DNA of 33,754 nt from assembly GCA_903897005.1 (NCBI GenBank), contig CAITZZ010000109.1, forward strand, positions 1-33,754, in the 5' to 3' direction. Shown here piece by piece: positions 1 to 18,168 of this stretch. The notes beneath the pieces were generated by a model. The model was given only the letters and a program-made list of their open reading frames with translations, was not told the DNA's origin and made no database searches. The DNA comes from an uncultured beta proteobacterium. GTDB taxonomy: Bacteria; Pseudomonadota; Gammaproteobacteria; Burkholderiales; Burkholderiaceae_C. How positions within the stretch are numbered: position 1 is the stretch's first letter; the number at the start of each line of letters is the position of its first letter. Both the position numbers and the translations under genes were made by a program.

Positions 1-231
1 ATCATCAGCCTGGCCGCCGCGTTCGGGCGCGACGTGATTGCCGAAGGTGTGGAGACGGTGGCGCACGGCACCGCGCTGCTGCAGCTGGGTTGCGAACTGG
101 CACAAGGCTACGGCATTGCACAGGCCATGCCACCAGAGCAGTTACCCGCCTGGGTGGGCAACTGGCAGCCCGATGCGGCGTGGTGTGGGGTGATGAATTC
201 TGGTGTGGCATCCCGGTCAACAGACAAGTAG
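1..231 (+). CDS. EAL-domain protein, C-terminal end (partial)
   Basis: Only the last 76 codons are in the window; the frame is open from base 1 to a TAG at 229. The visible residues include an EGVET block (residues 15-19 of the visible part) followed by the QLGCELAQGYGIAQAMP stretch. Together these are the typical last conserved blocks of an EAL domain, the c-di-GMP phosphodiesterase fold; the Glu of EGVET belongs to the metal/catalytic set in active enzymes. About 25 unconserved residues follow. The rest of the protein, including the EAL signature itself and any GGDEF or sensor domains, lies to the left, so activity cannot be judged. Whether this gene belongs to the host or to the integrated element to its right is not resolved. 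Confidence 0.85.
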   Translation: MISLAAAFGRDVIAEGVETVAHGTALLQLGCELAQGYGIAQAMPPEQLPAWVGNWQPDAAWCGVMNSGVASRSTDK

Positions 232-740
232 GCTGCCGCAAAGCGGGTGTTCGAGGCGGTCTGGAATCGCTGCACAAAAGCCCCACAGTCCGCGAAATTT
301 TCATCGTGGTTGTGAATGTCAGCTTACCTATTTCCATCGGGTTAGCTGAACGACCGCTCGGCCCTACTGCGGCGACCCGCTTTGGGCACACTGTTGCCTG
401 CCAATCAATCGCGGCGAATGCCCGGAGTCAGGCCTAAACCAGCCGCACGGGCTCGCTGCATCCACCTGCCTCTGGCGTTGCGACCGCGCTCTGCCGGGGC
501 CTTCCACGGCCGCTATACGGCGGCGGCACCCCAACACCTTCCGCGAGTTCAAAACACGCGCAGAACGCCTGTAAACAGCCCGTAGAGCCACTGAGGGCGC
601 AGGCCGACACCTCGCGTGGCCTGTATCTATCAAATTAGATGCTGGGGAGGGGGAAAAGCGTGCGCGCCCACTGGTATGGGGCTCCATGACAGTGATTCAA
701 CTACCGCTGAATCGGTAGGTGACACAGGCCTTCAGCAAGA
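232..740. other. Gap of about 500 bases without a recognisable gene
   Basis: Open frames here (for example on the minus strand at 364-687) give Arg/Pro/Ser-rich low-complexity translations that resemble no family and look like chance frames in GC-rich DNA. A small perfect inverted repeat, CTACCG/CGGTAG with a six-base loop, lies at 701-718, just past the stop of the leftward gene ending at 741, and could be a weak 3' hairpin for that transcript. No tRNA and no copy of the 6714-6758 attachment block was seen, so this gap does not visibly hold the left end of the element. Confidence 0.5.
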
Positions 741-1112
741 CTAGCTCGGCTGTGCAAGGACTATTGAAATGAGGGGGCGCTGCCCCGGTCTTGTTTCCAC
801 TTGAATCAGCCCGGCTTGTTCTAGCCGCGCCAATCCCGCACTTGCGGCAGCCCGCTCCACGCTAAGGTACTTCAGGGACACCCGCGTGAGTTTGAACGGC
901 TTGCCTTTTGCCATCCCGTGCCGCCACCATAGGGCGATAGCCACATTGATCGTCTTGCCAGGAAGAGCGGCTGCTCTGCCCAACCATTCAAGTGGAATCG
1001 GCCCCTTAACAAATAGCGCTTTCTTTGGGGCTACCGCTAACCTGCCAGTTACAGCGTCAAGTTGCAATCGCCTTACCGAAATATCGGAATCAGAAGTAGC
1101 TGGTGGATACAT
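741..1112 (-). CDS. Winged-helix DNA-binding-like protein of the element
   Basis: A 123-residue protein. Residues about 49-118 read as a winged helix: a helical stretch (ALPGKTINVAIALWWRHGM), a helix-turn-helix-like segment (residues 74-101, LTRVSLKYLSV through ARLEQAGLI) and a wing (QVETRPGQRPLISIVL). This arrangement suggests a small transcription regulator or a replication-initiation-type DNA-binding protein. It is the last gene of the leftward run, 72 bases after the polymerase stop. The ATG at 1112 has no clear Shine-Dalgarno; an A/T-rich stretch (TATATA and TATACAT on the minus strand) lies directly upstream and may be a promoter, which would fit a leaderless or separately transcribed gene. 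The domain reading is from pattern only; the target is unknown. Confidence 0.6.
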   Translation of the reverse strand: MYPPATSDSDISVRRLQLDAVTGRLAVAPKKALFVKGPIPLEWLGRAAALPGKTINVAIALWWRHGMAKGKPFKLTRVSLKYLSVERAAASAGLARLEQAGLIQVETRPGQRPLISIVLAQPS

Positions 1113-1184
1113 ATGTATAGATATATAAAGAGAATGTACGGGTGCGCCAGCCAGACGCAGGTACGTGCGTTTGGCCGGCGCAGG

Positions 1185-2921
1185 TCAGGCCAACACCGGC
1201 CCACTGATCAGGTTCATCACCTTGTTCCACATCACTACACCGCGCTTGTCCATATAGCGGTCTGGATAGCGGACTTCCTTCACATCGCTGCCAAGTTCAA
1301 AGCCATCCAGAACTATCCGGCTGGCCTCCTGCATCAGGGATTCCGTGGTGGCGATAGCTTCGTCCAGTTCGTCCAGCGGCGCTTCGATGAGCAGCGCGTC
1401 GTGCACGGGAGCACAAACACGGATTCCTGCCTCGGTCAGAAGAATGCTGGCAATGCGCAGCATCTCGGCACCATTGGCCTGCATAGGGAAATTACGCAGA
1501 CTGCGGTCATTGATCTCGTCGCGTGTATGAATCTGCCAGCCAAACCCGGCCCACAGACGGCCACCAAGCACAGCCTCATCGACTGCGCTGTCTGACCACT
1601 TCCAGAACTGCCGGTAGGTGCGGCGATGAAGTTCCAGGAGTTGACGGGCGCGGGCCACCGGCTGGTTGATGCGCGCGGCCAAGCTGGCCTCGCCCATCCC
1701 ATACTGCACGGCAAGCACGCACTCCTTGAATTGCCCCCGCACGGCTTCATGCGTCCACTTGGTAGCGGTCGGCGGGGCCGCCCCAGCTTGGATCGCAAAC
1801 GCCATATACGGGTCGCCACTGCGGTAGGCATCCAGCATGGCCGGATCACCGGAGAGGGCGGCGGCAATGCCGAACTCCTGCTGACTCCAATCCACGTAGG
1901 CCAGTCCCCAACCGGGTTTTGGGCGGATCAGGCCGCGCAGCCAGACCGAGGGGCCAAAGATGAACTTGGAGTTGGATGGCTGATTGCGCCCAGTGCGTGC
2001 CTGAAATGGCGACAACAGGCAGCGGTTGCGCCCATCGTCGCCAACGTACAGATTCGCAAGCCGCATTCCCGATAACGATGAGCGGAGTTCGCGCATCGGC
2101 GCCACCTCGACATACGTGCGCGCCATCTTGCGGAAGGTGTCATCACTCATATCGAGTCGTCCGCTTTCCAGGCGCGGCCAGGGGATGTCGTTGGCGACCA
2201 GATACTCTTCCCAGCGGCTAGTCTTGAAGCTGCGCCCGTCGTAGACGCCGTAATCCAGGTCGATGTCAGCAATCAATTGATCTTGAATCGCGCTCCACTG
2301 CGACAAGAGCAAGCTGTGCACCTCGATGTCTAGCGGAACGCCATTCATCTGGATGCACGACACCGACTTCATGTAGCGTCCACGCAGCAGTGCACGTGCC
2401 CAGTCGATCTGGTTTTGCATGGCGTCAATTAGGTACGCCAGTGCCACGACATCGGTTTCGCAGTAGTCCAGGATCGCCACTTGCTCGGGCATACTCCATG
2501 GTCCGCCGGTCAGGACAAGGTCACGCATGGTGCTCTTCTGCTCACCACCTATGCTGGGCAGTCCGTAGTACAGCAGCGCGCCCAGTAGACCATTGCCATG
2601 AGCCAACCGCAGGCCGTTGGTCAGGCAGCGGAACTCAGCGAAGAGATCAAGAACATGGGTTGGGTGCGCCCACCCCAACGCATGAAAGCAATCCATCTCG
2701 GCTGAGGCGTAGTAGGCGACGCACAGTGCCTCTTCACCAGTCGGAAAGGGGGCAGCAGCCATCTGTTCAAGATCGGCCTGCCAGTAGCGACTGGTGCCCC
2801 CCGAAGGCCACGCCCGCACCACCATGCAGACCGGAGTCGGCAGATTGCCCTCACGGCCACCTGCCGGGTGGAACTCGAAATCCACGAGGTATATGCCGTC
2901 GGGGAAATCGAGCGTGTCCAC
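1185..2921 (-). CDS. Family A DNA polymerase with 3'-5' exonuclease domain (element-encoded)
   Basis: This is a 578-residue Pol I-like enzyme without the N-terminal 5'-nuclease. A DEDDy exonuclease domain is seen at residues 1-165: Exo I D14-x-E16, Exo II around D92, Exo III Y153-x3-D157. The polymerase domain has motif A (D344-W-S-Q-Q-E349), motif B (R395, K399, Y407) and motif C (H507-D508-A509). Both catalytic Asp residues are present. From the K399-Y407 spacing, residue 403, equivalent to E. coli F762, is Leu; the usual HDE of motif C is HDA. The GTG at 2921 was chosen because it overlaps the upstream stop by one base (TAGTG) and starts just before the exonuclease core; an upstream ATG at 3026 would add 35 unconserved residues lying over the neighbouring gene. 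Likely role: replication of the integrated element or of its excised form. That role is inferred. Confidence 0.9.
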   Translation of the reverse strand: MDTLDFPDGIYLVDFEFHPAGGREGNLPTPVCMVVRAWPSGGTSRYWQADLEQMAAAPFPTGEEALCVAYYASAEMDCFHALGWAHPTHVLDLFAEFRCLTNGLRLAHGNGLLGALLYYGLPSIGGEQKSTMRDLVLTGGPWSMPEQVAILDYCETDVVALAYLIDAMQNQIDWARALLRGRYMKSVSCIQMNGVPLDIEVHSLLLSQWSAIQDQLIADIDLDYGVYDGRSFKTSRWEEYLVANDIPWPRLESGRLDMSDDTFRKMARTYVEVAPMRELRSSLSGMRLANLYVGDDGRNRCLLSPFQARTGRNQPSNSKFIFGPSVWLRGLIRPKPGWGLAYVDWSQQEFGIAAALSGDPAMLDAYRSGDPYMAFAIQAGAAPPTATKWTHEAVRGQFKECVLAVQYGMGEASLAARINQPVARARQLLELHRRTYRQFWKWSDSAVDEAVLGGRLWAGFGWQIHTRDEINDRSLRNFPMQANGAEMLRIASILLTEAGIRVCAPVHDALLIEAPLDELDEAIATTESLMQEASRIVLDGFELGSDVKEVRYPDRYMDKRGVVMWNKVMNLISGPVLA

Positions 2922-3508
2922 TAGACTTTGCCCAGCAGAGATTGAACGACAGGGTGATCCAGTCCGATGATGATCTTGCCGCGAAAGGCCACATCCACCA
3001 AGGCATCGATATCGTGTGCCGGCCAATCGGGGTCAGGCAGCGGGCCTTCCGCCTCATAGACGTCGTAACCACCTGTGTGCATATTGGCCGTAACGCGAAT
3101 CCACGTCGGTTTGGCACGTTCAACAGCCTGCGCCAGCGATTCATGCCAAGGGTTACGCGTCCCGGATTCTCCCGGCAGCGGCACCGGGATCAGGAAGGTG
3201 TTGTTCTGACGGTCGATGGCTGCGTGCAGCATGACCGGACGAACGAGTTCACTGATTTGCTGGGATATATCTGGCATGACCAAATAGCTTTCTCGGGCTT
3301 CCTTCTGTTCGAGCAGCATGGCCGGGAAGGTCATCGCGTCGGACGTGTGCGTGCGAAAGAATTGTGATTTCTTTGGCTTACCCACGTGCACGTTGGTCAG
3401 CAGTTTCTTGACGCCCAGTGTCGCGCCATACGTGGCTGGCAAGCGCAGGGATTTGAGGTCCGCGGTGGTTGTGGACGCGGTTTGTTTCGATGCTGTCTGA
3501 GTTTTCAT
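2921..3508 (-). CDS. Unknown protein translationally coupled to the polymerase
   Basis: A 195-residue protein of unrecognised family. The first 18 or so residues are Thr/Ser/Gln/Lys-rich and probably disordered; the remainder looks like a compact alpha/beta protein with several beta-like stretches (KKLLTNVHVGKP, PTWIRVTANMHTGGYDVYEA). There is no signal peptide or membrane segment. The start is supported by AGGAG eight bases before the ATG. Its TAG overlaps the GTG of the polymerase (TAGTG), so the two proteins are probably made together. Small proteins encoded just before a mobile-element polymerase are often single-strand-binding proteins or processivity factors; that is only a guess from position, as no OB-fold signature is evident. 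Confidence 0.75.
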   Translation of the reverse strand: MKTQTASKQTASTTTADLKSLRLPATYGATLGVKKLLTNVHVGKPKKSQFFRTHTSDAMTFPAMLLEQKEARESYLVMPDISQQISELVRPVMLHAAIDRQNNTFLIPVPLPGESGTRNPWHESLAQAVERAKPTWIRVTANMHTGGYDVYEAEGPLPDPDWPAHDIDALVDVAFRGKIIIGLDHPVVQSLLGKV

Positions 3509-3556
3509 AGTAGTGCTCCTGGGTGAAGTGAAGTTGAGAGAGGATTGCGTTCTGTA

Positions 3557-3601
3557 GACGCTGGTTGGTTGTGTCTTGGCGGGTTGGCCGTCACCAGCGT
3601 C
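3557..3601 (-). promoter_or_regulatory. Inverted repeat between two element genes
   Basis: A perfect nine-base inverted repeat, GACGCTGGT at 3557-3565 and ACCAGCGTC at 3593-3601, separated by 27 bases. It lies in the 117-base gap between the 117-residue gene (stop at 3626) and the 195-residue gene (start at 3508). There is no T-run, so it is not an intrinsic terminator. It could be an mRNA structure setting the level of the downstream genes, or a dyad for a DNA-binding protein. Function is unknown. Confidence 0.4.
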
Positions 3602-3625
3602 CGTCTCGTTGCCTTTTGGGGCACA

Positions 3626-3979
3626 TCAGCTTGCCTCCTTGTTGGCGGCCAGAGCCACCTGCATGGCGCGCTGCTGGAAGCCCGCGTCTCCGGCAATGAT
3701 CCAGCGAGTTGACGATGCGCCCGCCTCACCCATGCGGCGATTGACTGCGACCAAGCACTCAAGGGCCGCGGCTTCGTCATGCGCCAGCGCCTGAACTATT
3801 CCGTCGTCGGGCAGGTTCAGGCAGCCGGCTGCCACGAAGAATTTCATCTTCAAGTTTCTTGCTGACGCGGCACCGGAATGAAAATCTTTGTTGGCAAAGT
3901 TTTGAAGTGCTTTGGCAAGGACAAATTGGCCCTGGGTGGTACTCAGGTCGGCGACCAGACCGAAAGTGGCGGCGGCCAT
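3626..3979 (-). CDS. Unknown protein, 117 residues
   Basis: No family is recognised. The translation is Ala-rich and mostly helical in character (LAKALQNFANKDF, IVQALAHDEAAALECLVAVNRRM), without signal peptide, membrane segment or metal-binding motif. It begins with an ATG that overlaps the TAA of the preceding HTH gene by one base (TAATG), so it is almost certainly translated by coupling and is a real gene. The next gene downstream starts after 117 bases holding an inverted repeat. Membership of the same operon suggests a role in element maintenance or replication, but nothing in the sequence says what. Confidence 0.65.
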   Translation of the reverse strand: MAAATFGLVADLSTTQGQFVLAKALQNFANKDFHSGAASARNLKMKFFVAAGCLNLPDDGIVQALAHDEAAALECLVAVNRRMGEAGASSTRWIIAGDAGFQQRAMQVALAANKEAS

Positions 3980-4176
3980 TACATCTGCCCCAGCAGGCGT
4001 TTGCAGTCTTCCTCATGGCGACGCTGCCATTCATCAGCGGCACGGTCGCTTATGAAGCGGCGGCGACCTACCTTGTAGGTGACCAGACGGCCACTGTCAA
4101 TCTCTTCGTAAGTCTTGGTTCTACCAAGCCTATGGGTGTCGATAAACTGGTTGACTGTGTACGCTTTTTGATCCAC
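3979..4176 (-). CDS. AlpA/excisionase-like helix-turn-helix protein
   Basis: A 65-residue protein with the layout of the MerR-like small excisionase/AlpA regulators: an N-terminal YTVNQFIDTHRLGRTKTYEEI helix-turn-helix (residues about 6-26), then SGRLVTYKVGRRRFIS, matching the usual 'G.L...K.GrR..I' wing, and a charged C-terminal helix. Family members activate integrase or excision genes, or bend DNA at attachment sites as recombination directionality factors. The start is a GTG preceded by a full AAGGAGG at six bases' spacing (4183-4189). It is the first gene of the leftward operon and its stop overlaps the next start (TAATG). Phased TTGC repeats about 80 bases upstream are candidate binding sites. 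Confidence 0.8.
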   Translation of the reverse strand: MDQKAYTVNQFIDTHRLGRTKTYEEIDSGRLVTYKVGRRRFISDRAADEWQRRHEEDCKRLLGQM

Positions 4177-4254
4177 GTTCGGCCTCCTTGGGCTTTAGGT
4201 GTTCGCTGAAAGGCCAACGACTCACCGTGAATCAATTTTGTTGAAGCGTTAGAC

Positions 4255-4306
4255 GCTTGCAAGGGTTTGCAAAAGCTTGCCTAAATACGCATGGATAAAG
4301 GCTTGC
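4255..4306. promoter_or_regulatory. Phased TTGC repeats upstream of the HTH gene
   Basis: Three copies of TTGC occur exactly ten bases apart (4257, 4267, 4277), each preceded by GC or GT and two followed by AA; a fourth lies at 4303 within GGCTTGCAG. One helical turn per repeat is the pattern of sites bound side by side on one DNA face, as for small excisionases or regulators. The block sits between the divergently relevant hairpin at 4322 and the start of the AlpA-like gene at 4176, so it is the natural promoter/operator region of that operon. Binding itself is inferred. Confidence 0.45.
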
Positions 4307-4321
4307 AGCCAGATTTGTGTC

Positions 4322-4350
4322 AAAACTCTCGCTCAGAGTTTGAGAGTTTT
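4322..4350 (-). terminator. Hairpin terminator after the 299-residue gene
   Basis: Perfect nine-base stem AAAACTCTC (4322-4330) with GAGAGTTTT (4342-4350) around an eleven-base loop. Read leftward it ends in a run of four T and lies exactly at the TAA of the 299-residue gene, so it looks like an intrinsic terminator insulating that gene from the operon that follows. The symmetrical A/T ends would allow it to work in both directions. The stem is weak in G/C, so efficiency is uncertain. Confidence 0.55.
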
Positions 4351-5248
4351 AACCCAGGATTACGTTTGAAAATGCCTTTAGGACCGTGCCACTGGAAAAT
4401 TTATGTTTGCCCCCCCGTTTTTTGTATCCGGCAGTGAACAATGCCGCTGAAACTTTGTCAGCAAGGTTTTCACGCTTGGCAAGCAAGGTAGGTTTATCGA
4501 TTACGCACAGTCGTGCGAAGTACCGGGCGGGTGTGTACCAAGGTTGTTCAGGTGCTGGATCGCGGTCATCTGCTACAAGCCACGGTTTTGTTGCTTCTTC
4601 CTGTGATGCAGACACCGCATTCGCCGTATCCCCGATCACCCCCGTGCTTGTCGCACCTGATCGAACCCGTTCAGCATATCCATCCGGCAAAGTGAATGCG
4701 CCGCCTGAGGCTTCAACTAACTCGACCAATGCGACCGGCGTACACGGTAGCGTCAGATGAACCTTGAGGAACTCGCGCATAAGCAGTCGATCAGTTTGAT
4801 TCAGTAGCGATAGCGTGTGGGCATCAATCGGGGTGGGGTAGACACTGCCCGCAGCTACAGTGAAGTCACCGTACCTACCTTCGCCACAGTCGGTAAGAAA
4901 TTCAAAAGCGGGCAAGTCAATTGATGCGCGGCCCGTGTACTGATCGATTTCCTCGATAGATTCAGCGCAAGGCACTGTATCAATGTAAGTGGCAGTTTCA
5001 CGATACTTTAGGGTCCTGGCAGTTCGGCCAGTCTGGCGAGTTTCCGTGAATGCTTGAAGACCATCGTCCAGTTGCTCGACAAGCAAGATTCGACCACTTT
5101 CCGTGAGTCGATCCCACTGCGCAACCTCAAACACTTTTTTCACTGGGCTGTGTAACTTCTTCGGCAGTTTGTCGAATGGCTTGCCCCATTGGCCGTCAAG
5201 CTGTGCCAACAGTGGATGGGGTTCTTTCTTGTACATGAAATTTGACAT
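4349..5248 (-). CDS. Unknown 299-residue protein next to the integrase
   Basis: No family is recognised. The start is well supported by AAGGAG about seven bases before the ATG. The protein is soluble with no signal peptide. Two parts can be told apart: residues 1-175, with a mixed alpha/beta character (RILLVEQLDDGLQAF, LMREFLKVHLTLP), and a C-terminal basic segment (about 235-299: WYTPARYFARLCVIDKP, then KKRGGKHKFSSGTVLKAFSNVILG), separated by an acidic/Ala-rich linker at about 205-230. The basic C-terminus could bind nucleic acid. It sits between the integrase and the AlpA-like gene and ends in its own hairpin terminator, so it appears to be an independent unit of the element. It could be a regulator, a cargo function or an antiphage gene; the sequence does not decide. 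Confidence 0.7.
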   Translation of the reverse strand: MSNFMYKKEPHPLLAQLDGQWGKPFDKLPKKLHSPVKKVFEVAQWDRLTESGRILLVEQLDDGLQAFTETRQTGRTARTLKYRETATYIDTVPCAESIEEIDQYTGRASIDLPAFEFLTDCGEGRYGDFTVAAGSVYPTPIDAHTLSLLNQTDRLLMREFLKVHLTLPCTPVALVELVEASGGAFTLPDGYAERVRSGATSTGVIGDTANAVSASQEEATKPWLVADDRDPAPEQPWYTPARYFARLCVIDKPTLLAKRENLADKVSAALFTAGYKKRGGKHKFSSGTVLKAFSNVILG

Positions 5249-5282
5249 GGTCGCACTCCTTCAAGTGCCTTCAATTAGGAGG

Positions 5283-5335
5283 CCCCAGCAAGCGGGGGAA
5301 GGTGCCCGCCTTTCGTCTGGCCGGACTAGCTGGGG
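5283..5335 (-). promoter_or_regulatory. Structured leader between integrase and the 299-residue gene
   Basis: Outer inverted repeat CCCCAGC (5283-5289) with GCTGGGG (5329-5335) encloses an inner GCGGG/CCCGC hairpin (about 5292-5308). This lies in the 141-base gap after the integrase stop and before the 299-residue gene's start (5248). It may be the integrase terminator, without a T-run, or a folded 5' leader controlling the 299-residue gene. No known riboswitch class is recognised. Confidence 0.4.
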
Positions 5336-5389
5336 CGAAACGGGTTCAGGCCGTATACGCCGCCGATATTGGGCGTGGTGCTTCGATGA

Positions 5390-6574
5390 TCAACCAAGCG
5401 CCAGCTTTCCCAAACCTTCAGCAGCTTGGTCCTGCAAAAGATGGCCGTAGTGCTTTTCAATCATTGCCAAACTGGTGCCAGCCAAACGTGCAACGGTAAG
5501 CAAATCTAGGCGGTGCAACACGATTAGGTCAGTGATGGTCGAATGGCGCAGGCTGTACGTCACTGCATCAGTCGGGAGTTTCGCAGCCTTGGCGGCATCC
5601 TTGAATGGACCTTTCCAGGAATCCTTATCCCAGAATTTGCCGCCTGCGCGAGGCAGTAGTGGTGCTGCTGGCAGCTTTCCCTTGGACTGCTCTGCAAAGA
5701 ACGCTGTCGTCGATTTGGGCAATCCAATCTTGCGGTCCTTTCCGTGCTTGTCCTTACCGACTGTCAGCACGCCCAGGCGCTTGTCGAAGTGTCCGACTGT
5801 CAGCGCGGCTACAGCGCCGGGTCTCAATGGCATCAGAGACAAAGCAGTGAGGAACGCTGCCAGATCAGCCGGTGCGTTGGCGATAAGTGCCTTCCGTTGG
5901 TTGAGGTCAAGATAGCATTCGCGTCGTTTGTCAGCGTCCTTGATAGGTTTTAGCTTATTTTTCCACGCGCTGTCACTGGTGACATGGCCGTCCTCAAGAG
6001 CGAGATTCAAAGCGGCCTTGAGCACGGCCATCTCCCGATTGATTGAACTGTCTGCGCGAATGTTGGTCGATTTCTTGTTCTTGTCCTGAGGGATCGTCGG
6101 CGTCCTGACCAACTTATTGCGCCAGTCATTCAACACGGCGGGAGTGAGCTTCATTACGGGAGTGTTGCTTAACCTGATGTCCGAATAGACCCAGCGTCGA
6201 AACCGACCCTCCGCATCTTTGACAGCACCATCCATTTTTGCGTCCCGCAATTTCGTGACGTATGCTTTGCAAGCCTGCTCTACTGTCAAAACACCATTCG
6301 ATCCCCCGGCATCAAGGTGAACCGCCCATTCACGCGCTGCCTTCTGCGCGGCATCGAAACGTATGTTGTCGGACAACTCGGAAAAGTCACCTAAGGAATG
6401 ATATTTTTGCTTTCTGGTTGACTCGTCCAGGACACGGAATATCCAAGTTCCGCCTGGGCCGCTGATCATCTTGCGGTAGCCGAGAAACACACCTTTTGCG
6501 ATACGATGCCAATATGGTTCGCGCCTCACTTTTAGTTTGTCGCGTGCCGAGACTGAGTCGATTTTGGTTGCCAT
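5390..6574 (-). CDS. Tyrosine-recombinase integrase of the element
   Basis: A 394-residue phage-type integrase that would catalyse site-specific recombination between element and host attachment sites. Seen: an N-terminal arm-binding-like part (residues about 17-65, PYWHRIAKGVFLGYRKM then YHSLGDF), a SAM-like core-binding part (about 95-205) and the catalytic domain (about 220-380) with R251 (in MPLRPGAVAAL), R343 (YSLRHS) and the nucleophile Y376 (MIEKHYGHL). The usual box II His is Tyr340 and the third-position His/Trp is Thr367 (AGTS); this pattern is familiar in the YSLRHS...AGTS subgroup. ATG 6574 is chosen because AAGGA precedes it and MATKIDSVSARDKLK matches the family N-terminus; ATG 6631 would add 19 residues. 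It reads away from the attachment site 140 bases upstream. Confidence 0.95.
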   Translation of the reverse strand: MATKIDSVSARDKLKVRREPYWHRIAKGVFLGYRKMISGPGGTWIFRVLDESTRKQKYHSLGDFSELSDNIRFDAAQKAAREWAVHLDAGGSNGVLTVEQACKAYVTKLRDAKMDGAVKDAEGRFRRWVYSDIRLSNTPVMKLTPAVLNDWRNKLVRTPTIPQDKNKKSTNIRADSSINREMAVLKAALNLALEDGHVTSDSAWKNKLKPIKDADKRRECYLDLNQRKALIANAPADLAAFLTALSLMPLRPGAVAALTVGHFDKRLGVLTVGKDKHGKDRKIGLPKSTTAFFAEQSKGKLPAAPLLPRAGGKFWDKDSWKGPFKDAAKAAKLPTDAVTYSLRHSTITDLIVLHRLDLLTVARLAGTSLAMIEKHYGHLLQDQAAEGLGKLALG

Positions 6575-6713
6575 GTTTTTCCTTGCGTACGGAAATTGTA
6601 CGGAATTTATAGGCGAATTGTGGCGCACCATGACGAATGATGCAATAGCTAACTAATTGATTTATAAACGATTATGAATTTTGACGAACAATCGAAAAGC
6701 TTATCACCCTTCG

Positions 6714-6758
6714 TTCACACTGCAGGGGTCGCAAGTTCGAAACTTGCACTGCCCACCA
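6714..6758 (+). other. Attachment site: 3' part of tRNA-Val(CAC)
   Basis: The block fits tRNA positions 32-76: anticodon loop TTCACAC (anticodon CAC, valine), 3' anticodon strand TGCAG, variable loop GGGTC, T-arm GCAAG/TTCGAAA/CTTGC, acceptor strand ACTGCCC, and encoded ACCA. No matching 5' half (acceptor GGGCAGT, D-arm) exists upstream, and the five bases where the 5' anticodon strand should be (CTTCG) pair only partly. So this is not a working tRNA but the displaced 3' end left when an element integrated into the gene. The intact, regenerated tRNA should lie at the other, left end of the element. Confidence 0.85.
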
Positions 6759-6776
6759 TCCATTGGTGATAAGAAT

Positions 6777-6811
6777 GGGACTTGACAGAAATGCCAAGTC
6801 CCTATTTTTTT
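6777..6811 (+). terminator. Intrinsic terminator of the ancestral tRNA gene
   Basis: Perfect eight-base stem GGGACTTG (6777-6784) with CAAGTCCC (6795-6802), ten-base loop, then TA and seven T. It begins 19 bases after the CCA of the tRNA fragment, the normal place for the terminator of that tRNA transcript. It therefore marks host DNA just outside the element and supports placing the boundary within 6714-6758. Confidence 0.85.
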
Positions 6812-6911
6812 GACGACAAGAGCGCCATGGTCTGAAAGCGCTCCACAAATATCAACCGTTCATTCCTGATTAATCGGTGTGTTAATCCATATTTCCCGGT
6901 AAGATGTGGCG

Positions 6912-8171
6912 ATGGACGCAACCCCCTTCTATCCGCGCTTGATTCAGGCACGCATCGCAGAAGCACTGACCGACACGCCCGTTGTGCTGCTTGCCGGGCC
7001 GCGCCAGGCAGGCAAAACAACGCTGGTGCGACAGATGGCAACGCCAGGGATGCGCTATCTGACCCTGGACGATGCGTTGACGCTGCTTTCGGCGCGCGAC
7101 GATCCGGTCGGCATGGTTCGCAGTTTGGACCGAGCCGTCATCGACGAGATCCAGCGCGCGCCTCAACTGCTGTTGGCCATCAAGAAGAGCGTCGATGAAG
7201 ACCGGCGAGCCGGGCGCTTCTTGCTGACCGGGTCGGCCAATTTGATGGTCATGCCGGCGCTGGCGGATTCTTTGGCGGGGCGGATGGAGACGCTCGCTTT
7301 ACTGCCCTTGTCGCAAAGCGAAATCCAGGGGAGCAGCGCGAACTGGATCGATGCGGCTTTTGCGGGCAGTCTGCTCAAAGTGGCGGCACCCGTTGTGGGG
7401 CAGGCATTGGTTGAAGTTGTCTTGCAGGGGGGTTACCCGGAGGCGATTTCGCGCACCAGCGCGCGCCGGCGCGCTGTGTGGGCACGCCAGTACCTGGCGG
7501 CACTCATTGCGCGTGATGTGCGAGACGTGGCCAGCATCGACAAACTCGATCAGTTGCCCCGCTTCTTGCGCAGCCTGGCGCAGGTCTCGGGCCAGATGTG
7601 CAACTACACCCAACTCGGTGGCCAGGTCGGCCTGGACAGCAAGACAGCAGCCCGATATGTCGGCGTGTTCGAACAGATGTACCTTCTCAGACGCGTTGAG
7701 GTCTGGGCCAGAAGCAAGCTCAAACGGGTCGTCAAATCACCCAAGCTGCAATTCATCGATGCCGGTCTGTTGGCCAGCTTGCTTGATCTGGGCGAGGCCG
7801 AAGTGCAGCGTGATCGCAGCCGATTCGGCAATGTTCTTGAAACTTTTGTCTATGCGGAATTGCTCAAGCACAGCAGCACGGCCGAGGGTGACTACCGGCT
7901 GCTCTACTACCGTGATGTTGACGGGTTTGAAGTGGATGTGGTGATCGAAAACGCTGCCGGTCAGTTGATCGGTGTCGAGGTCAAGGCCGCCGCCACCGTG
8001 AAGGCTGGCGATCTGCGGGGCTTGAAGAAGTTGGCCAGTGTTGCAGCAGACCAGTTCATGATGGGCATCCTGCTGTACGACGGCACAGAAACCCTGCCTC
8101 TGGGTGATGGCATGTGGGCAGTTCCCCTGTCGACTTTGTGGGGCGGAGTTAGCTTGGAACGGAGGGTTTAG
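6912..8171 (+). CDS. AAA ATPase with DUF4143 domain
   Basis: A 419-residue protein of the DUF4143 ATPase family. Walker A is GPRQAGKT (residues 29-36), Walker B AVIDEI (residues 75-80), followed by the LLTGSANL sensor-like block at about 103. The DUF4143 part (about residues 180-360) ends in a pattern resembling a PD-(D/E)xK nuclease core: [11 protein letters not shown] ... LIGVEVKA (about 332-352). The cellular role of this family is poorly known; members occur in genomic islands and have been suggested to act in stress or toxin-antitoxin-like functions. ATG 6912 is preferred; an in-frame GTG six bases upstream (6906) is possible, and neither has a strong Shine-Dalgarno. It stands immediately outside the element and one base before the next gene's upstream region, so it may be co-transcribed with the oxidase. 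Confidence 0.85.
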
Positions 8172-8172
8172 C

Positions 8173-9273
8173 ATGGATCAGATCGAATGCGTGGTTATCG
8201 GTGCCGGTGTGGTCGGCTTGGCAGTGGCGCGTGCGCTTGCGCTGGGCGGGCATGAAGTGATGGTGTTGGAGGTAGCCTCGGCCATAGGCACGGGAACCAG
8301 TTCGCGCAACAGCGAAGTCATCCATGCCGGCATCTACTACCCGAAAGACTCCCTGAAAGCGAAGTTGTGCGTGCAGGGCAAGCAACTGCTGTACGACTAT
8401 TGTGCTGAGCGAGGCATTGGCCACCGGCGTTGCGGCAAACTGTTGGTGGCGACATCACCGGAGCAGGTAGCGCAGTTGCAGGGCATCAAGGAGCGCGCCG
8501 AACGCAATGGCGTGAGTGATTTGCAACTGCTCAGCGCCGCACAGGCGCGCGCCATGGAGTCTGCGCTGGTTTGTGACGCAGCCATCTTTTCACCCAGCAC
8601 CGGCATTGTTGACAGCCACACCCTGATGCTGGCACTGCAGGGCGATATAGAAAATGCCGGCGGCATGGTGATCCTCAACTCAAAGCTGGAGCGGGCCGAC
8701 TGCACGCCAACAGGTGTTGGCCTGACGGCCGCCGACGGCACACAGCTGCTGGCAAAGACAGTGGTCAATGCCGCCGGTTTGCAAGCGCCAGCGCTGGCAG
8801 CACGCTTCGCGGGGCTGGCGCCTCAGCATGTGCCGCGCGCCTGGTTTGCCAAGGGAAATTACTTCACGCTTGCCGCTCGCGCGCCGTTCTCCCGGCTGAT
8901 CTATCCCGTGCCACAGCCTGGCGGGCTGGGCGTGCACCTGACGCTCGATCTGGGAGGGCAGGCCAAGTTTGGTCCGGACGTACAGTGGGTTGATTCGGCT
9001 GACGATTTGACAGTCGACGCGGCGCGCGGCGATGCCTTTTATGCCGAGGTGCGCAAGTACTGGCCAGCACTCGAAGACGGCGCGCTGATTCCAGGTTATG
9101 CCGGGATACGGCCGAAGATTCACGGCCCCGGTCAGGCTGACTGCGACTTTATGATTCAGGGACCCGCCGAGCACGGAGTGGCCGGCTTGATCAACCTGTT
9201 CGGCATCGAGTCGCCGGGGCTGACCAGTGCGCTGGCGATTGGTGATTACGTGCGAGATATGCAGTTGTCATGA
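8173..9273 (+). CDS. FAD-dependent oxidoreductase, L-2-hydroxyglutarate oxidase-like
   Basis: A 366-residue flavoprotein of the DAO superfamily. The N-terminal dinucleotide-binding motif is GAGVVG (residues 11-16), ending in an acidic residue (VLE) at the second strand, typical for [19 protein letters not shown] (about 46-61) is the conserved flavin-contact block of the L-2-hydroxyglutarate dehydrogenase/oxidase group (LhgO/L2HGDH). The C-terminal [13 protein letters not shown] and [18 protein letters not shown] blocks also match that group. Likely reaction: oxidation of L-2-hydroxyglutarate or a similar 2-hydroxy acid, with transfer of electrons to oxygen or quinone; the substrate is inferred. 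GGAGGG lies seven bases before the ATG, and the upstream ATPase stop is two bases before the start, indicating an operon. Confidence 0.85.
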
Positions 9274-9285
9274 TGGGCCGGTATT

Positions 9286-9377
9286 TGTCATCCCGTCCCC
9301 GGATCAAGTCTGGGGTTATAACATCCGGGATCCAGTGCCACGCATACACTGGATTGCGGCTCAAGGCCGCAATGACA
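9286..9377. repeat. Intergenic palindromic repeat, copy 1
   Basis: Bounded by TGTCAT and ATGACA and containing an eight-base hairpin ATTGCGGC/GCCGCAAT with loop TCAAG (9353-9373). The same loop and nearly the same stem recur at 21113-21133, so these are copies of one dispersed extragenic element. A second CCCC/GGGG pairing lies in its left half. It occupies the gap between two convergent genes. Confidence 0.7.
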
Positions 9378-9420
9378 GCCCTCCAGGAAGCCGGCAATGA
9401 CAGCCCTCCAGAAAGCCAGC
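9371..9420. repeat. Two tandem 25-base repeats
   Basis: AATGACAGCCCTCCAG followed by G/A AAGCC G/A GC occurs twice in tandem (9371-9395 and 9396-9420) with two base differences; a decayed third start (AGTGACGGC) follows. The first unit overlaps the right edge of the palindromic repeat, so the duplication appears to have started from its end sequence. Confidence 0.7.
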
Positions 9421-9433
9421 AGTGACGGCTTTC
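9411..9433. terminator. Possible terminator between convergent oxidase and pyrD
   Basis: Stem GAAAGCC (9411-9417) with GGCTTTC (9427-9433) around nine bases, adjacent to TT and the pyrD stop. It could serve the rightward oxidase transcript, although the T-run is short. It is built from the last tandem repeat unit, an example of a repeat possibly used as a terminator. Confidence 0.4.
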
Positions 9434-13973: not shown

Positions 13974-14836
13974 GTAGCCCGCTCCGCTGCTTCAAGCGTG
14001 TTGACCAGCAGCATGGTGATGGTCATCGGGCCAACGCCACCGGGCACCGGGGTAATGAAACTCGCCACTTCCCGGACGCCGGCAAAGTCCACATCGCCGC
14101 AAAGTTTGCCTTCCGGGTTACGGTTCATGCCAACGTCAATCACGATCGCACCGGGCTTGACCATGTCGGCCGTCAGCACGTTGCGCTTTCCCACGGCGGC
14201 GACAACGACGTCGGCCTGGCGCGTATGTTGCCCGATGTCGGCGGTGGCACTGTGACAAACCGTGACAGTGGCGTTGGCTTGCAGCAGCAGCAGGGCCATC
14301 GGCTTGCCCACCGTGTTGCTGCGACCGATCACGACCGCATGCTTGCCGCGCAAATCGACGCCAGTGCTCTCTATCAATTTCATGCAGCCGTAGGGTGTGC
14401 AGGGCCGAAAGCCGGGTGCGCCGGTCATCAACTCGCCAGCCGACAGGGTGGCGTAGCCGTCCACATCCTTGCTGGTGGCAATGGCTTCAATCACCTTGTG
14501 CGGATTGATGTGTTTGGGTAGCGGCATCTGCACCAGAATGCCGTGCACCGAAGGATCTGCGTTGAGCGCGGCGATCCGCGCGAGCAGATCGGCCTCAGGC
14601 AAGGTGGCCTCGTATTTCTCGAAGACCGAGTGCACGCCGGTGTCGGCACAAGCTTTGACCTTGTTGCGCACATAGACTGCGCTGGCCGGATCCTCGCCGA
14701 CCAGAATCACCGCCAACCCGGCACTGCGGCCGCGTGCTTTGAGCGCCAGTACGCGCGCTGCGACTTCGCTGCGTAACTGGGCAGAGAGGGCGACTCCGTC
14801 AATGATCTGGCCACGCTGGTTTTCTTGGTTCGTCAT
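13970..14836 (-). CDS. folD: Bifunctional methylenetetrahydrofolate dehydrogenase/cyclohydrolase
   Basis: A 288-residue cytoplasmic enzyme converting 5,10-methylene-THF to 10-formyl-THF in two steps with NADP+. The YVRNKVKAC block carries the catalytic Lys; the conserved [10 protein letters not shown] and [12 protein letters not shown] blocks, and [15 protein letters not shown], the dinucleotide-binding signature, are all present, as is the C-terminal [11 protein letters not shown]. Length is normal. It overlaps prlC by four bases and is separated from the upstream response-regulator gene by 117 bases that contain a long perfect-arm palindrome, which may act as a transcriptional boundary. Confidence 0.97.
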
Positions 14837-14877
14837 AGCTTTGCTTGGTTCGGTTCGTCTACAGGATCAACAACTGC

Positions 14878-14939
14878 GTCATTGCGAGCGCAGCGTGGCA
14901 ATCGACAGCGATGGCTTGCCACGCTGCGCTGGCAATGAC
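14878..14939. repeat. Long extragenic palindrome
   Basis: Two 26-base arms (14878-14903 and 14914-14939) around ten bases. The outer end is GTCATTGC/GGCAATGAC with near-complete pairing inward through AGCGCAGCGTGGCAA. This belongs to the common 'GTCATTGCGAGCG...' kind of dispersed extragenic palindrome found in many proteobacteria. It lies between response regulator and folD and would form a strong hairpin in the leftward transcript. Confidence 0.75.
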
Positions 14940-14953
14940 CACGGCAGGCCTCG

Positions 14954-15580
14954 TCAGGTTTTGCCGGCGGCTTGTCCCAAGGCAATTTTCAAAAGATCGG
15001 CGACGGTGTTGGCGTTGAGCTTTTCCATGATGTTGGCGCGGTGCGCTTCCACCGTCTTGATGCTGATGCCCAGGTCGTCCGCAATCTGCTTGTTCAGTCG
15101 GCCGGCAACGATGCGTTCGAGCACCTGAGCTTCGCGCAAGGTCAATCGTGCCATCAAGGCGCCACGGTTGGCTGCGCTCTGGTGCTCGGCAAAGGTTTCT
15201 TTGGCCTGGTCGAGCATGCGCTCCACCAGGGTCACCAACTGGTCTTCCTTGAAGGGCTTCTGGATGAAGTCCATGGCACCCTTCTTCATGGTGTCGACCG
15301 CCATCGGTACGTCGCCGTGACCCGTGATGAAGACAATCGGAAGAGGCGAACGGGCTTCGATCAGGCGATTCTGCAATTCCAGACCCGTCATGCCACCCAT
15401 GCGGATATCGACGATCAGACAGGCCACTTCGCGCGCATCGTAGCGACTGAGAAAAGACTCAGCGGAGTCAAAGCAGCGTACGCGGTATTCCTTGCCTTCC
15501 AGCAACCACTGAAGCGAATCGCGCACTGCCTCGTCATCATCAACGACGTAGATCGTGCCTTTTTTCGGTATCAAACTCAT
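14954..15580 (-). CDS. FixJ-family response regulator (REC-LuxR)
   Basis: A 208-residue transcription regulator. Receiver domain at residues about 8-122: acidic D14-D16, phospho-acceptor D58 (CLIVDIRMGG), T86 (FITGHGD) and K108 (QKPF). A LuxR-type HTH lies at about 143-205 (LTLREAQVLERIVAGRLNKQIADDLGISIKTVEAHRANIMEKL). This layout is the FixJ/TodT/DctR-like class that activates transcription on phosphorylation. It starts 32 bases after the histidine kinase stop, so the pair is an operon. The pair lies divergent from aceE; control of the pyruvate dehydrogenase operon is plausible but inferred from position. Confidence 0.93.
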   Translation of the reverse strand: MSLIPKKGTIYVVDDDEAVRDSLQWLLEGKEYRVRCFDSAESFLSRYDAREVACLIVDIRMGGMTGLELQNRLIEARSPLPIVFITGHGDVPMAVDTMKKGAMDFIQKPFKEDQLVTLVERMLDQAKETFAEHQSAANRGALMARLTLREAQVLERIVAGRLNKQIADDLGISIKTVEAHRANIMEKLNANTVADLLKIALGQAAGKT

Positions 15581-15612
15581 GCGTTATCCCGGATTGACCC
15601 TGGAGTCCTTGG

Positions 15613-18168
15613 TTATCTGAGCGTTAGCGGTGCCGCCGACGGGCCTGGCTCCGTCACCGGAATCCAGAATGAAAAACAGCACCCTGTGACTTCGGCGCCA
15701 TTGTAGATGTTCTCGGCTTTCATTCGGCCCAAATGCGATTCTACGATTGAGCGGCACAGGCTCAGACCGATGCCCATGCCGTCTGCTTTGGTCGAGTAAA
15801 AGGACTCGTAGAGCCGCTGCATCACTTCAGGCGCAAGGCCCTGACCGGAATCGACCACCGTGAATTCGATCACCGGCTTGTCATCGACCTGACTCGGCGC
15901 CACGCGCAACCTCACACTGCGCTCGGCCGTCGGTCGCTGTGCCGAATCAATCGAATCGGCTGCGTTTTTCAGCAGATTCACCAGTACCTGCTCGATCAGG
16001 ATCGGGTCCACCAGCAAAGGCGGCAGACGTGGTGCCAGGTAATGGGTCAAGCGGACATTGCGCCGGCGCATCTCGATCTCGGCGAGTTCTAGTGCTTCCT
16101 CGACCATGCCGGAGACTTCCGACAGCGAACGGTTGGGCTCACTGCGCTTGACGAAGGAACGGATGCGCTGAATGATCTGGCCCGCGCGCTGCGCCTGCCG
16201 GGCCGTCTTTTCCAGCGCGCCGAGCAGGTCCTCGTCGCTGATATGCCCGCTCTTGATACGCGAGACCATGCCGTTGCAGTAGTTGTTGATGGCGGTCAGT
16301 GGTTGATTGAGTTCGTGCGCCACGCTCGAAGCCATCTCACCCATGGTGATCAGCCGACTGGCGTTCTGGGCGCGCTCGGTCTGGGCGGCCGACTGTGCCT
16401 CGGCGATGCGGCGCGCCGTGATGTCTGTGGCGATCACCATCTGCGCCAACCGGCCATCGACCCAACTCAGGTAACGCGTGCGAACTTCCAGCCATTTTCC
16501 AAGGGCGTCGAGGTAGATCTCGGAACTCTCCGCCTCGCTGTCGGGAAGCGAGTTGGTTGGCAGACCGGCAAAGACGTCGACATCGTCCAGCGTTTCGTCA
16601 GTTGGCGACGTTGCCGGCACACCGGCTTCAGCCACCAGTTGCAAATGCCCGCCTGCCTGGGTGCCGAACCAGAGGCGGTACAGCTTGTTGGCAAACAGCA
16701 GTTCGTCGCTGCCAAGCGGCGCCACGGAAATCGACGCGTCCAGCGCTTCAAGCACGGTGGTGAAGCGCTCGTGCGAGGCCGACAACTGATCCCGAATCCG
16801 GTTCGGCTCGGTGATGTCCGTCATTGAAGTCATCCATCCGCTCTGCACACCATGGGCGTCGATCAGGGGAGAGACATAGAGTCGGGCGTCAAACAGGGTT
16901 CCGTTCTTGCGCTTCACCCGAAACTGCACACCGCTGGGCAGGATCTTGCCTGCCAGTTCTTCTTCCAGCCGTGAGTTCAGGGAGTCGCGATCAGCCTCCG
17001 GCCAGTACGGAAACGGTGCGGTGCGGCCCACCAGATCGGCTTCGCTCCAGCCCGTCATCTTGCAAAACGCCGCATTGACGTAGGTGATTCGCCCTTGCAA
17101 ATCGAGTGCACGCATGCCTGTGAGCATGGAATTTTCCATGGCCCGGCGGAACACCGTTTCCGACACCAGCGCCTGCTGTGCCTGCATGCGTCGGCGCGTG
17201 TGGCGCCAGTTGGCGATCAGCATCCAGGCTGTCATCGCACTCAGGGCTGTCACCAGCCAGAACAGGCCACTGCCGATGACGCCGAGCGAGGTTCGATAGG
17301 CCTCGCCGCGAATCGTCAAGTTGTTGCCAACCGGAGACACCGGAACTTCGTAGGCGTTTACCGGGCTGTCCCACGGCAGCAAGCGGGTGGCCGGGTTGCG
17401 TGCCGGAATCGTCGTGCCGGCCAGCAGGCCGCCCCTGGCGTCGTGCATTGAGACGGCGTAGCGGGCTGTCACCTCAGCCGGTACGCCATAGCGAAACAAA
17501 CCATCGACCGAGTACTCCGCCAGCACCACGCCGGAAAACCGCGCGCCTTCACTCAGGGGAATGTGCAGTTGCAGTGTGGCAGAACCGTCCGGCGTTGCCG
17601 CGCGCTGGGCGTAAATGGGCTGTTGCAGATCGCGCGCCAGACTGAAGGCACTTTCGGTGTCACCCATGTTGAAAGTACTGCCGATGGTGCGCAACTGGCT
17701 GCTCGTCAGGTTGCCGGTATCGACGATCGCTTTGATTCGGCGTCGCTCGTCAATCCAACTCAAACTTTGCAGTTCGGGGTAACGGCTGATCAGGGTTTCG
17801 GCGCGACCCTGGAAGTCGTCTGCATCGATCTCATGGTTGGCGAGTTCGCGGCCGACGCGCATCAATTGCTCCTGGCGCTCCAGCAGGCGCAGGCGCAAGC
17901 GCTGCTGCGTGTATTCGACATCGCGCTTGACGGCCTCCTGTTCGCGGTCGATTTCTTCCAGCCGCAAGTAGCCAAAGGCAGTCACGATGGCGGCCAGAAA
18001 CAGCAGCACGGCCGCCAGCGGCGCCAGCATGGCAAAGCGGTCCTGTCGCTGCGGCGTCTGGCGCCGCCACCAGCGCCTCCAGCGCGCCAGCAGCGGCAGC
18101 TTCATCGAACTTGGCAAGGCAGCAGGACCGGTCAGTGGCATGGCATCAAGTGTAGGTGAGTGGGTCAT
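15613..18168 (-). CDS. Membrane sensor histidine kinase with PAS domains
   Basis: An 851-residue sensor. Two membrane segments (about 46-68 and 295-319) enclose a periplasmic sensing region of about 225 residues. A PAS domain follows (about 338-455, MRALDLQGRITYVNAAFCKMTGWS) and a second, divergent PAS-like region (about 465-585). HisKA has H618 (SSVAHELNQPL), and the HATPase has N box LLKNAADSI, G1 VDSGQGL and G2 MGIGLSLCRSIV. All kinase motifs are intact. It resembles FixL/DctB-type kinases; no haem site is evident. The ATG at 18168 is chosen; a TTG at 18201 and ATGs at 18141 and 18105 are alternatives and none has a clear Shine-Dalgarno. It precedes the response-regulator gene and faces aceE. 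Confidence 0.93.
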   Translation of the reverse strand: MTHSPTLDAMPLTGPAALPSSMKLPLLARWRRWWRRQTPQRQDRFAMLAPLAAVLLFLAAIVTAFGYLRLEEIDREQEAVKRDVEYTQQRLRLRLLERQEQLMRVGRELANHEIDADDFQGRAETLISRYPELQSLSWIDERRRIKAIVDTGNLTSSQLRTIGSTFNMGDTESAFSLARDLQQPIYAQRAATPDGSATLQLHIPLSEGARFSGVVLAEYSVDGLFRYGVPAEVTARYAVSMHDARGGLLAGTTIPARNPATRLLPWDSPVNAYEVPVSPVGNNLTIRGEAYRTSLGVIGSGLFWLVTALSAMTAWMLIANWRHTRRRMQAQQALVSETVFRRAMENSMLTGMRALDLQGRITYVNAAFCKMTGWSEADLVGRTAPFPYWPEADRDSLNSRLEEELAGKILPSGVQFRVKRKNGTLFDARLYVSPLIDAHGVQSGWMTSMTDITEPNRIRDQLSASHERFTTVLEALDASISVAPLGSDELLFANKLYRLWFGTQAGGHLQLVAEAGVPATSPTDETLDDVDVFAGLPTNSLPDSEAESSEIYLDALGKWLEVRTRYLSWVDGRLAQMVIATDITARRIAEAQSAAQTERAQNASRLITMGEMASSVAHELNQPLTAINNYCNGMVSRIKSGHISDEDLLGALEKTARQAQRAGQIIQRIRSFVKRSEPNRSLSEVSGMVEEALELAEIEMRRRNVRLTHYLAPRLPPLLVDPILIEQVLVNLLKNAADSIDSAQRPTAERSVRLRVAPSQVDDKPVIEFTVVDSGQGLAPEVMQRLYESFYSTKADGMGIGLSLCRSIVESHLGRMKAENIYNGAEVTGCCFSFWIPVTEPGPSAAPLTLR

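Follow-up and report, generated by a model that had tools for sequence, protein, structure and literature searches.

The 33,754-nucleotide (nt) contig CAITZZ010000109.1 of an uncultured beta proteobacterium, called the window below, carries the integrase-proximal part of a mobile element integrated in a tRNA-Val(CAC) gene. On the minus strand, between positions 741 and 6758, lie in order a tyrosine integrase, an int-alpA RNA, a protein of 299 amino acids (aa), a helix-turn-helix (HTH) protein of AlpA type, a 117-aa open reading frame (ORF) and then the genes for a 195-aa protein (P195), a family A DNA polymerase (PolA) and a predicted winged-helix protein (WH). We favour, with a probability close to 0.6, the reading that P195, PolA and WH form the replication cassette of integrative elements akin to phage-inducible chromosomal islands (PICIs) and phage-inducible chromosomal minimalist islands (PICMIs), in which this cassette would replace the usual primase and the DNA would be carried by a helper phage. 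Such elements would be of a little-known kind, perhaps parasites of viruses. The reading starts from direct observations of the integration site, the gene content, the conservation of the cassette and the conserved catalytic residues of its polymerase. The vast majority of known satellites rest on a primase according to PMC10803314, which, like all papers cited here, is represented by excerpts.

The cassette stands at the far end of this gene order. P195 (2921..3508, minus strand, as are all genes of the element) is followed by the polymerase (1185..2921; 578 aa, GTG start; PF00476 at E 5e-21, phrog_17 at E 5e-44), the stop of the former and the start of the latter overlapping by one base (TAGTG), and then by WH (741..1112; 123 aa). 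Relatives were searched for with a four-sequence polymerase alignment, yielding at least 124 genome loci (the best 80 of the 124 were examined) and 10 IMG/VR loci; the two scans used two short patterns that differed between the collections, as did the collection sizes, so that these two counts are not rates. ORF clustering covered 92 loci, leaving 88 distinct loci with a called polymerase ORF: L112, the same contig as L008/G303, is excluded from the gene-order, cassette-presence and motif-spacing counts, and L122, L132 and L138 are excluded as having no called polymerase ORF. The initial annotation had proposed looking among polymerase homologues for a neighbour of about 195 residues, and P195 is indeed present in all 81 loci in which this could be tested, the window included (77 by ORF call, 4 by tblastn); the latter four, which had seemed to be without it, hold the gene in another frame. 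WH is found in 81 of 84 testable loci, the exceptions being L120, L131 and L147, and the exonuclease DxE motif lies 36-46 nt past the P195 stop in 68 of 79. The order P195-polymerase-WH recurs in loci from many sources, though the source labels, mostly metagenome bins, are unreliable for host range, and this recurrence is more than chance. The cassette has no primase or helicase as a conserved companion. A polymerase search of 299 genomes of the family at E<=1e-40 returns the window only, and a search of 60 relatives for P195 returns the window and G303 only. Pairs of loci from the same bin (L074 and L081, L065 and L137, L084 and L085) suggest that one genome may hold two different such elements.

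An alignment of 83 polymerase ORFs of at least 540 aa, which also underlies the tree discussed below and contains 81 different sequences (G303/L112 and L085/L086 are identical pairs), marks the enzyme, by polymerase motifs A, B and C and the exonuclease carboxylates, as a family A DNA polymerase with a 3'-5' exonuclease. Residues D92, D344, E349, R395, K399, L403, H507 and D508 are present in 83/83 rows and Y153, D157 and Y407 in 82/83, and the exonuclease carboxylates, where aligned, are D14 in 80/81 and E16 in 81/81. Motif C reads HDA in every row, and position 403, equivalent to E. coli position 762 by a reading of motif B, is Leu throughout. Matches to this polymerase among known phages (726 records) and plasmids (15 records) are distant, with less than 60% identity and none covering 80% of the query. 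Family A polymerases of the Leu762 type are linked mainly to temperate phages in the excerpted part of PMC6302109.

The two partners of the polymerase have been characterised through AlphaFold2 (AF2) models. The P195 model, with a predicted local distance difference test score (pLDDT) of 92.1, contains strands at 51-53, 60-68, 73-77, 90-99, 104-110, 137-142 and 147-152, a helix at 120-131 and a short helix at 79-82, an arrangement of four main strands, helix and two strands that resembles the oligonucleotide/oligosaccharide-binding (OB) fold; our guess from this model is that P195 is possibly an OB-fold single-stranded-DNA-binding (SSB) protein. Five viral proteins in BFVD match it at E<1e-3, none of them named SSB, and single-sequence searches at E 1e-3 give no match in 50,697 phage or 72,556 plasmid records. 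Together with the 124 genome loci and 10 IMG/VR loci, the phage result speaks against the possibility, raised in the initial annotation, that homologues of this polymerase occur mostly in ordinary phages. The model of WH (pLDDT 90.1) has weak matches to many winged-helix regulators, none of them specific, and its family match is MarR-like and below cut-off.

Integration in a tRNA gene is confirmed by the empty site of a relative. The initial annotation noted a tRNA 3' fragment beside the integrase, and this fragment is real: positions 6714..6758 on the plus strand hold the 3' half of tRNA-Val(CAC), beginning in the anticodon loop and ending with CCA, and constitute the right attachment site (attR) because the same neighbourhood is empty in genome G369 (L047), where dnaQ, an intact tRNA-Val(CAC) at 14632-14706 and a DUF4143 gene follow one another. 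Window positions 6714-9423 and L047 positions 14662-17359 are collinear in a 92% alignment, with 99% identity over 6714-6812. The T-arm stretch of the tRNA-Val also lies near the following oxidoreductase gene in three further relatives (L021, L022 and L027). The window itself, contig G000:C109, is one of 439 contigs in a draft genome in which the host's own dnaQ contig, C408, stops about 50 nt before the expected tRNA start; an attempt to guess the intact tRNA from a 5' consensus gave only noise.

The integrase (5390..6631; 413 aa) matches phrog_1 at E 6.9e-33 and PF00589 at E 2e-4, the latter below cut-off. Between it and the gene for the 299-aa protein (4349..5248) sits the int-alpA RNA (RF02996; 5268..5336, minus strand), which matches the whole model at 58.3 bits against a gathering threshold of 35.8 (E 9e-10). 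The 299-aa protein, an open frame that is the next gene after the integrase, has no Pfam, PHROG or PADLOC match and a single NCBIfam match far below threshold. The AlpA/excisionase-type HTH protein (3979..4176; 65 aa) matches HTH_17 at E 0.003 and TIGR01764 at E 0.001, both below cut-off, and its stop overlaps by one base with the 117-aa ORF (3626..3979), an open frame of uncertain coding status with no family match and no homologue in the polymerase loci. The integrase, AlpA-like, 195-residue, polymerase and winged-helix genes named in the initial annotation are thus all in place; the int-alpA RNA, the 299-aa gene and the 117-aa ORF were absent from it. General family scans of the window proteins, which cover the element without its left end, give no primase family and no relaxase or type IV secretion system (T4SS) family.

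Among 398 other genomes of the family, 24 encode an integrase of this type (E<=1e-60), and the clade probably targets tRNA-Val, since a similar core lies within the 1.5-kb flanks of 11 of 26 loci of related integrases. In eight neighbourhoods of related integrases, each 11-17 kb long, no P195, polymerase or WH match is found, and the element therefore combines a shared replication cassette with an integrase module that also serves elsewhere. Conversely, searches of 91 polymerase loci with the window proteins (E<=1e-4) find WH in 78, the integrase in 2, AlpA in 1 and the 299-aa and 117-aa proteins in none; as neither the integrase nor AlpA nor the 299-aa protein is kept with the polymerase, the conserved unit is the cassette and not the whole element. 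AlpA relatives are seen in L140 and, beside a related integrase, in L155. In the latter (L155:658-810) the closest integrase relative, 67% identical and with inner stops, adjoins a 53% match to the window's AlpA, with no int-alpA RNA, and none is found in 20 loci of integrase relatives. The initial annotation's expectation that an integrase and a tRNA accompany the polymerase is supported: of the 26 loci whose flanks are long enough, 21 have a recombinase close by (none is clustered in L069, L080, L109, L110 and L114), and a tRNA lies within 700 nt of an integrase in 17 of 60 loci with a clustered integrase. An integrase stands upstream of the polymerase in 36/88 loci, only downstream in 17/88 and is not seen in 35/88, many of these being short contigs.

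The genes around the cassette suggest a link between one branch of these elements and phage satellites. Two sets of flanking proteins were scanned: one beside WH, taking at most the first two ORFs (120-1000 aa) after WH in 69 loci (124 proteins, 18 of them from viral loci), and one of the further flanks, with 137 proteins of genome loci picked from 159, of which 130 are upstream of the polymerase; the scans list the best 25 of 66-101 families. Beside WH, the small terminase subunit (TerS; phrog_83) appears nine times, phrog_57 three times, the GpA large terminase five times, and capsid and portal once each. In the further flanks, one TerS (L091) and no other packaging or structural family are among the matches listed. 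Checked locus by locus, phrog_83 TerS is present in L117, L118, L125, L126 (Polynucleobacter cosmopolitanus), L139 (Polynucleobacter sp. Latsch14-2), L143 and L145, with no large subunit (TerL) seen nearby, and in the polymerase tree, which was built by a quick method with only Shimodaira-Hasegawa-like approximate likelihood ratio test (SH-aLRT) support, the seven TerS rows form one fork (support 93) inside a 10-row branch (100). TerS without a visible TerL in this branch makes the elements look like phage satellites rather than pipolin-like islands.

The relative with the best-defined limits is L074:6664-18071 from a Rhodocyclaceae bin, 11.4 kb long and bounded by 48-bp repeats at tRNA-Met that lie 11.3 kb apart. 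Its cargo comprises an N6/N4 methylase and a SmaI-type nuclease (restriction-modification), an HTH protein and a phosphoesterase, with no structural gene among those scanned. L135:2973-13507 has two integrases 9.2 kb apart and, next to tRNA-Leu, repeats of 36 bp and 21 bp; this may be an array of tandem islands. A supposed repeat in L131 was dropped as the tRNA itself. Palindromes at L139:12670-12760 and L143:6130-6200 are similar to the anticodon arm of the tRNA-Lys next to them and could be a terminator or a short att core. L143 and L150 belong to one 25.9-kb IMG/VR record, which past about 7.5 kb of L143 looks by eye like host chromosome.

By its gene content the element looks like a satellite of the PICI/PICMI type or a pipolin-like self-replicating island, and by the features compared it is a member of neither. 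PICMIs of the Vibrionaceae, as excerpted from PMC10803314, resemble it in having few genes, namely an integrase, a variable gene often overlapping it, alpA and then a replication gene, and no capsid-remodelling genes; the order of integrase, variable gene, alpA and replication here is parallel, and the integrase overlaps the variable gene by 4 nt in 7/36 loci. The authors' model makes co-location of int, alpA and prim mandatory, and their methods add Fis (PMC10803314). The element here has an integrase and an AlpA-type HTH protein but no prim and sits in tRNA-Val; more generally, PICMIs need the prim primase and have a prototype beside fis, whereas the present elements have P195-PolA-WH, tRNA sites, varied hosts and sometimes TerS. 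PICIs, in the part of PMC6092414 used, share the integrase, alpA, a replication module, terS in some cases and specific att sites, and the tRNA-Val core, the empty site and the integrase of the window correspond to such a site with its own integrase. In place of the pri/rep module with its replication origin, however, there is a family A polymerase with P195 and WH. Pipolins are tRNA-integrated, encode a tyrosine recombinase and their own DNA polymerase and commonly carry restriction genes (PMC7385651, in excerpt). Their piPolB is a primer-independent family B enzyme, in contrast to the family A polymerase with a fixed partner found here, which would extend a primer supplied by other means; of their terminal repeats at a tRNA, one att end is seen beside the integrase and the second is not in the contig. 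Tycheposons and virion-encapsidated integrative mobile elements (VEIMEs) are named as proposed satellites in the excerpt of PMC11389934. The former resemble the element as tRNA-anchored islands with a tyrosine recombinase (PMC10872708, which describes Methylophilaceae islands), a comparison that leaves their replication genes aside; no occurrence of the term 'DNA polymerase' is seen in that paper's main text. For the satellite phiAH14b a primase is named (PMC4936722, in part). No description of P195-PolA-WH, nor of any satellite or integrative element that combines a family A polymerase with a protein of this kind, was found in the literature searched, which did not extend to the main papers on tycheposons and VEIMEs.

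Several observations weigh against the favoured reading, beginning with the left side. The left end of the element is outside the contig, and no second copy of the att core is found in window positions 1-7200 or elsewhere in the same assembly; with this left attachment site (attL) missing, the present copy may have been cut short or rearranged, or a chimeric join may lie near position 243 of the contig. Positions 1..243 (plus strand), which probably do not belong to the element, hold the 3' end of a GGDEF/EAL gene of host type; contig C57 of G369 has a 1370-aa GGDEF/EAL gene whose end is 98.8% identical, and the similarity ends at 243. This gene end may reflect a gene inside the element, a rearranged genome or a chimeric contig. 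The stretch 244..740 is without assignment. It contains the left junction unless this falls outside the contig, and nothing in it matches the polymerase loci; two parts of it, 267-390 and 343-389, have counterparts on other contigs of G369, and 267-390 is perhaps a dispersed intergenic repeat. The initial annotation's compact, complete element is accordingly not established, the best-bounded near relative being 11.4 kb long. Elsewhere, att repeats are matched in few relatives (L074, L124, L135 and, weakly, L113), and none is found in L117, L126, L139, L143 and most other loci tested. A search of 26 other polymerase loci gives no int-alpA RNA, TerS is absent from the window genes scanned, and no PDB structure matches P195 at E<=0.001, the best being the ssDNA-binding protein PrgE at E 0.13 with a template modelling (TM) score of 0.17.

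Also adverse are viral contigs in which the polymerase set is accompanied by TerL (L006, L007, L142, L144, L146 and L148) and the 7.4-kb viral contig L147, in which P195 and the polymerase adjoin a major head protein and a portal, without a WH call; a phage seems to use the same P195-polymerase pair there. The phrog_12 portal, the only portal family searched for, is found in 4/32 genomes or records (32 of 33, without L108): in G430 (L149) and G428 (L147), in both of which it shares one short record with the locus, in G423, where the match is very weak, and in G419, whose portal is not placed relative to the element. The distinct class proposed in the initial annotation is weakened because the polymerase with its neighbours also occurs in viral contigs with a large terminase and in one with capsid and portal, as well as by the satellite look of TerS without TerL.

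These same contigs, with the portal on the record of L149, are an argument that the element is instead a decayed or cut-off prophage, its cassette being a temperate-phage replication module whose structural genes have been lost or lie beyond the left end of the contig. No large terminase, portal or capsid gene is present in the window part of the element, the left end being outside the contig, and the truncated left side would suit this explanation, as would the temperate-phage association of Leu762 polymerases. The phage groups with Leu762 neighbour helicases, whereas the conserved partners here are P195 and WH, with no helicase cluster (PMC6302109, in excerpt). The tree points the other way: the TerL rows L006, L007, L142 and L146 fall with three others in a 7-row branch (98), L147, labelled with the TerL group though a large terminase is not shown there, stands elsewhere, L144 and L148 fell below the length needed for inclusion, and the window's clade of 20 (99) contains no row labelled with TerS or TerL. 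The five GpA matches beside WH are as many as the viral loci of the TerL cluster (L006, L142, L144, L146 and L148), capsid and portal occur there once each, and TerS is the single packaging match listed for the further flanks. P195 is unmatched in the phage records and the catalytic residues are conserved, both of which also argue against decay or ordinary phage origin, and we regard a prophage as unlikely.

A mobilizable element or one of the type of integrative and conjugative elements (ICEs), with conjugation genes outside the contig and a polymerase that repairs or copies the transferred strand, is more doubtful still. The missing left end leaves room for it, a tRNA site with a tyrosine integrase equally suits ICEs and integrative and mobilizable elements (IMEs), and distant PolA proteins occur on some plasmids, but no relaxase or T4SS is among the matches listed for the 124 and 137 flanking proteins and P195 is unmatched in the plasmid records. 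A defence or repair island, whose cassette would act on invading or damaged DNA instead of replicating the element, is least probable: the PADLOC model RTasPolA matches the polymerase at E 9e-21 and restriction or abortive infection (Abi) genes occur in some flanks, yet we rank it low because that match is confined to the polymerase domain, no reverse transcriptase is seen in the window scans, and recombinases and tRNA sites accompany the cassette.

Under the satellite-like reading that we favour, the integrase and the AlpA-type directionality factor would excise and reinsert the element, and its conserved heart would be the replication cassette P195-PolA-WH. WH would probably bind the element's origin or control the cassette, P195, as an SSB with an OB fold, may coat single-stranded DNA, and the proofreading polymerase coupled to it would extend a primer supplied by a transcript, by a host or helper primase or by recombination. 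As with PICI and PICMI satellites, a helper phage would most likely carry the copied DNA; such carriage is proposed because a related branch has TerS without TerL nearby and because the bounded relative L074 has restriction-modification and no capsid gene among those scanned. If this is true, a family A polymerase with a strict partner would represent another route by which small elements copy themselves, and P195 beside PolA is a marker for finding such elements across many groups. It also poses a tractable question, namely whether PolA, an SSB-like partner and a winged-helix protein can start and carry the replication of a small circle, and from which primer.

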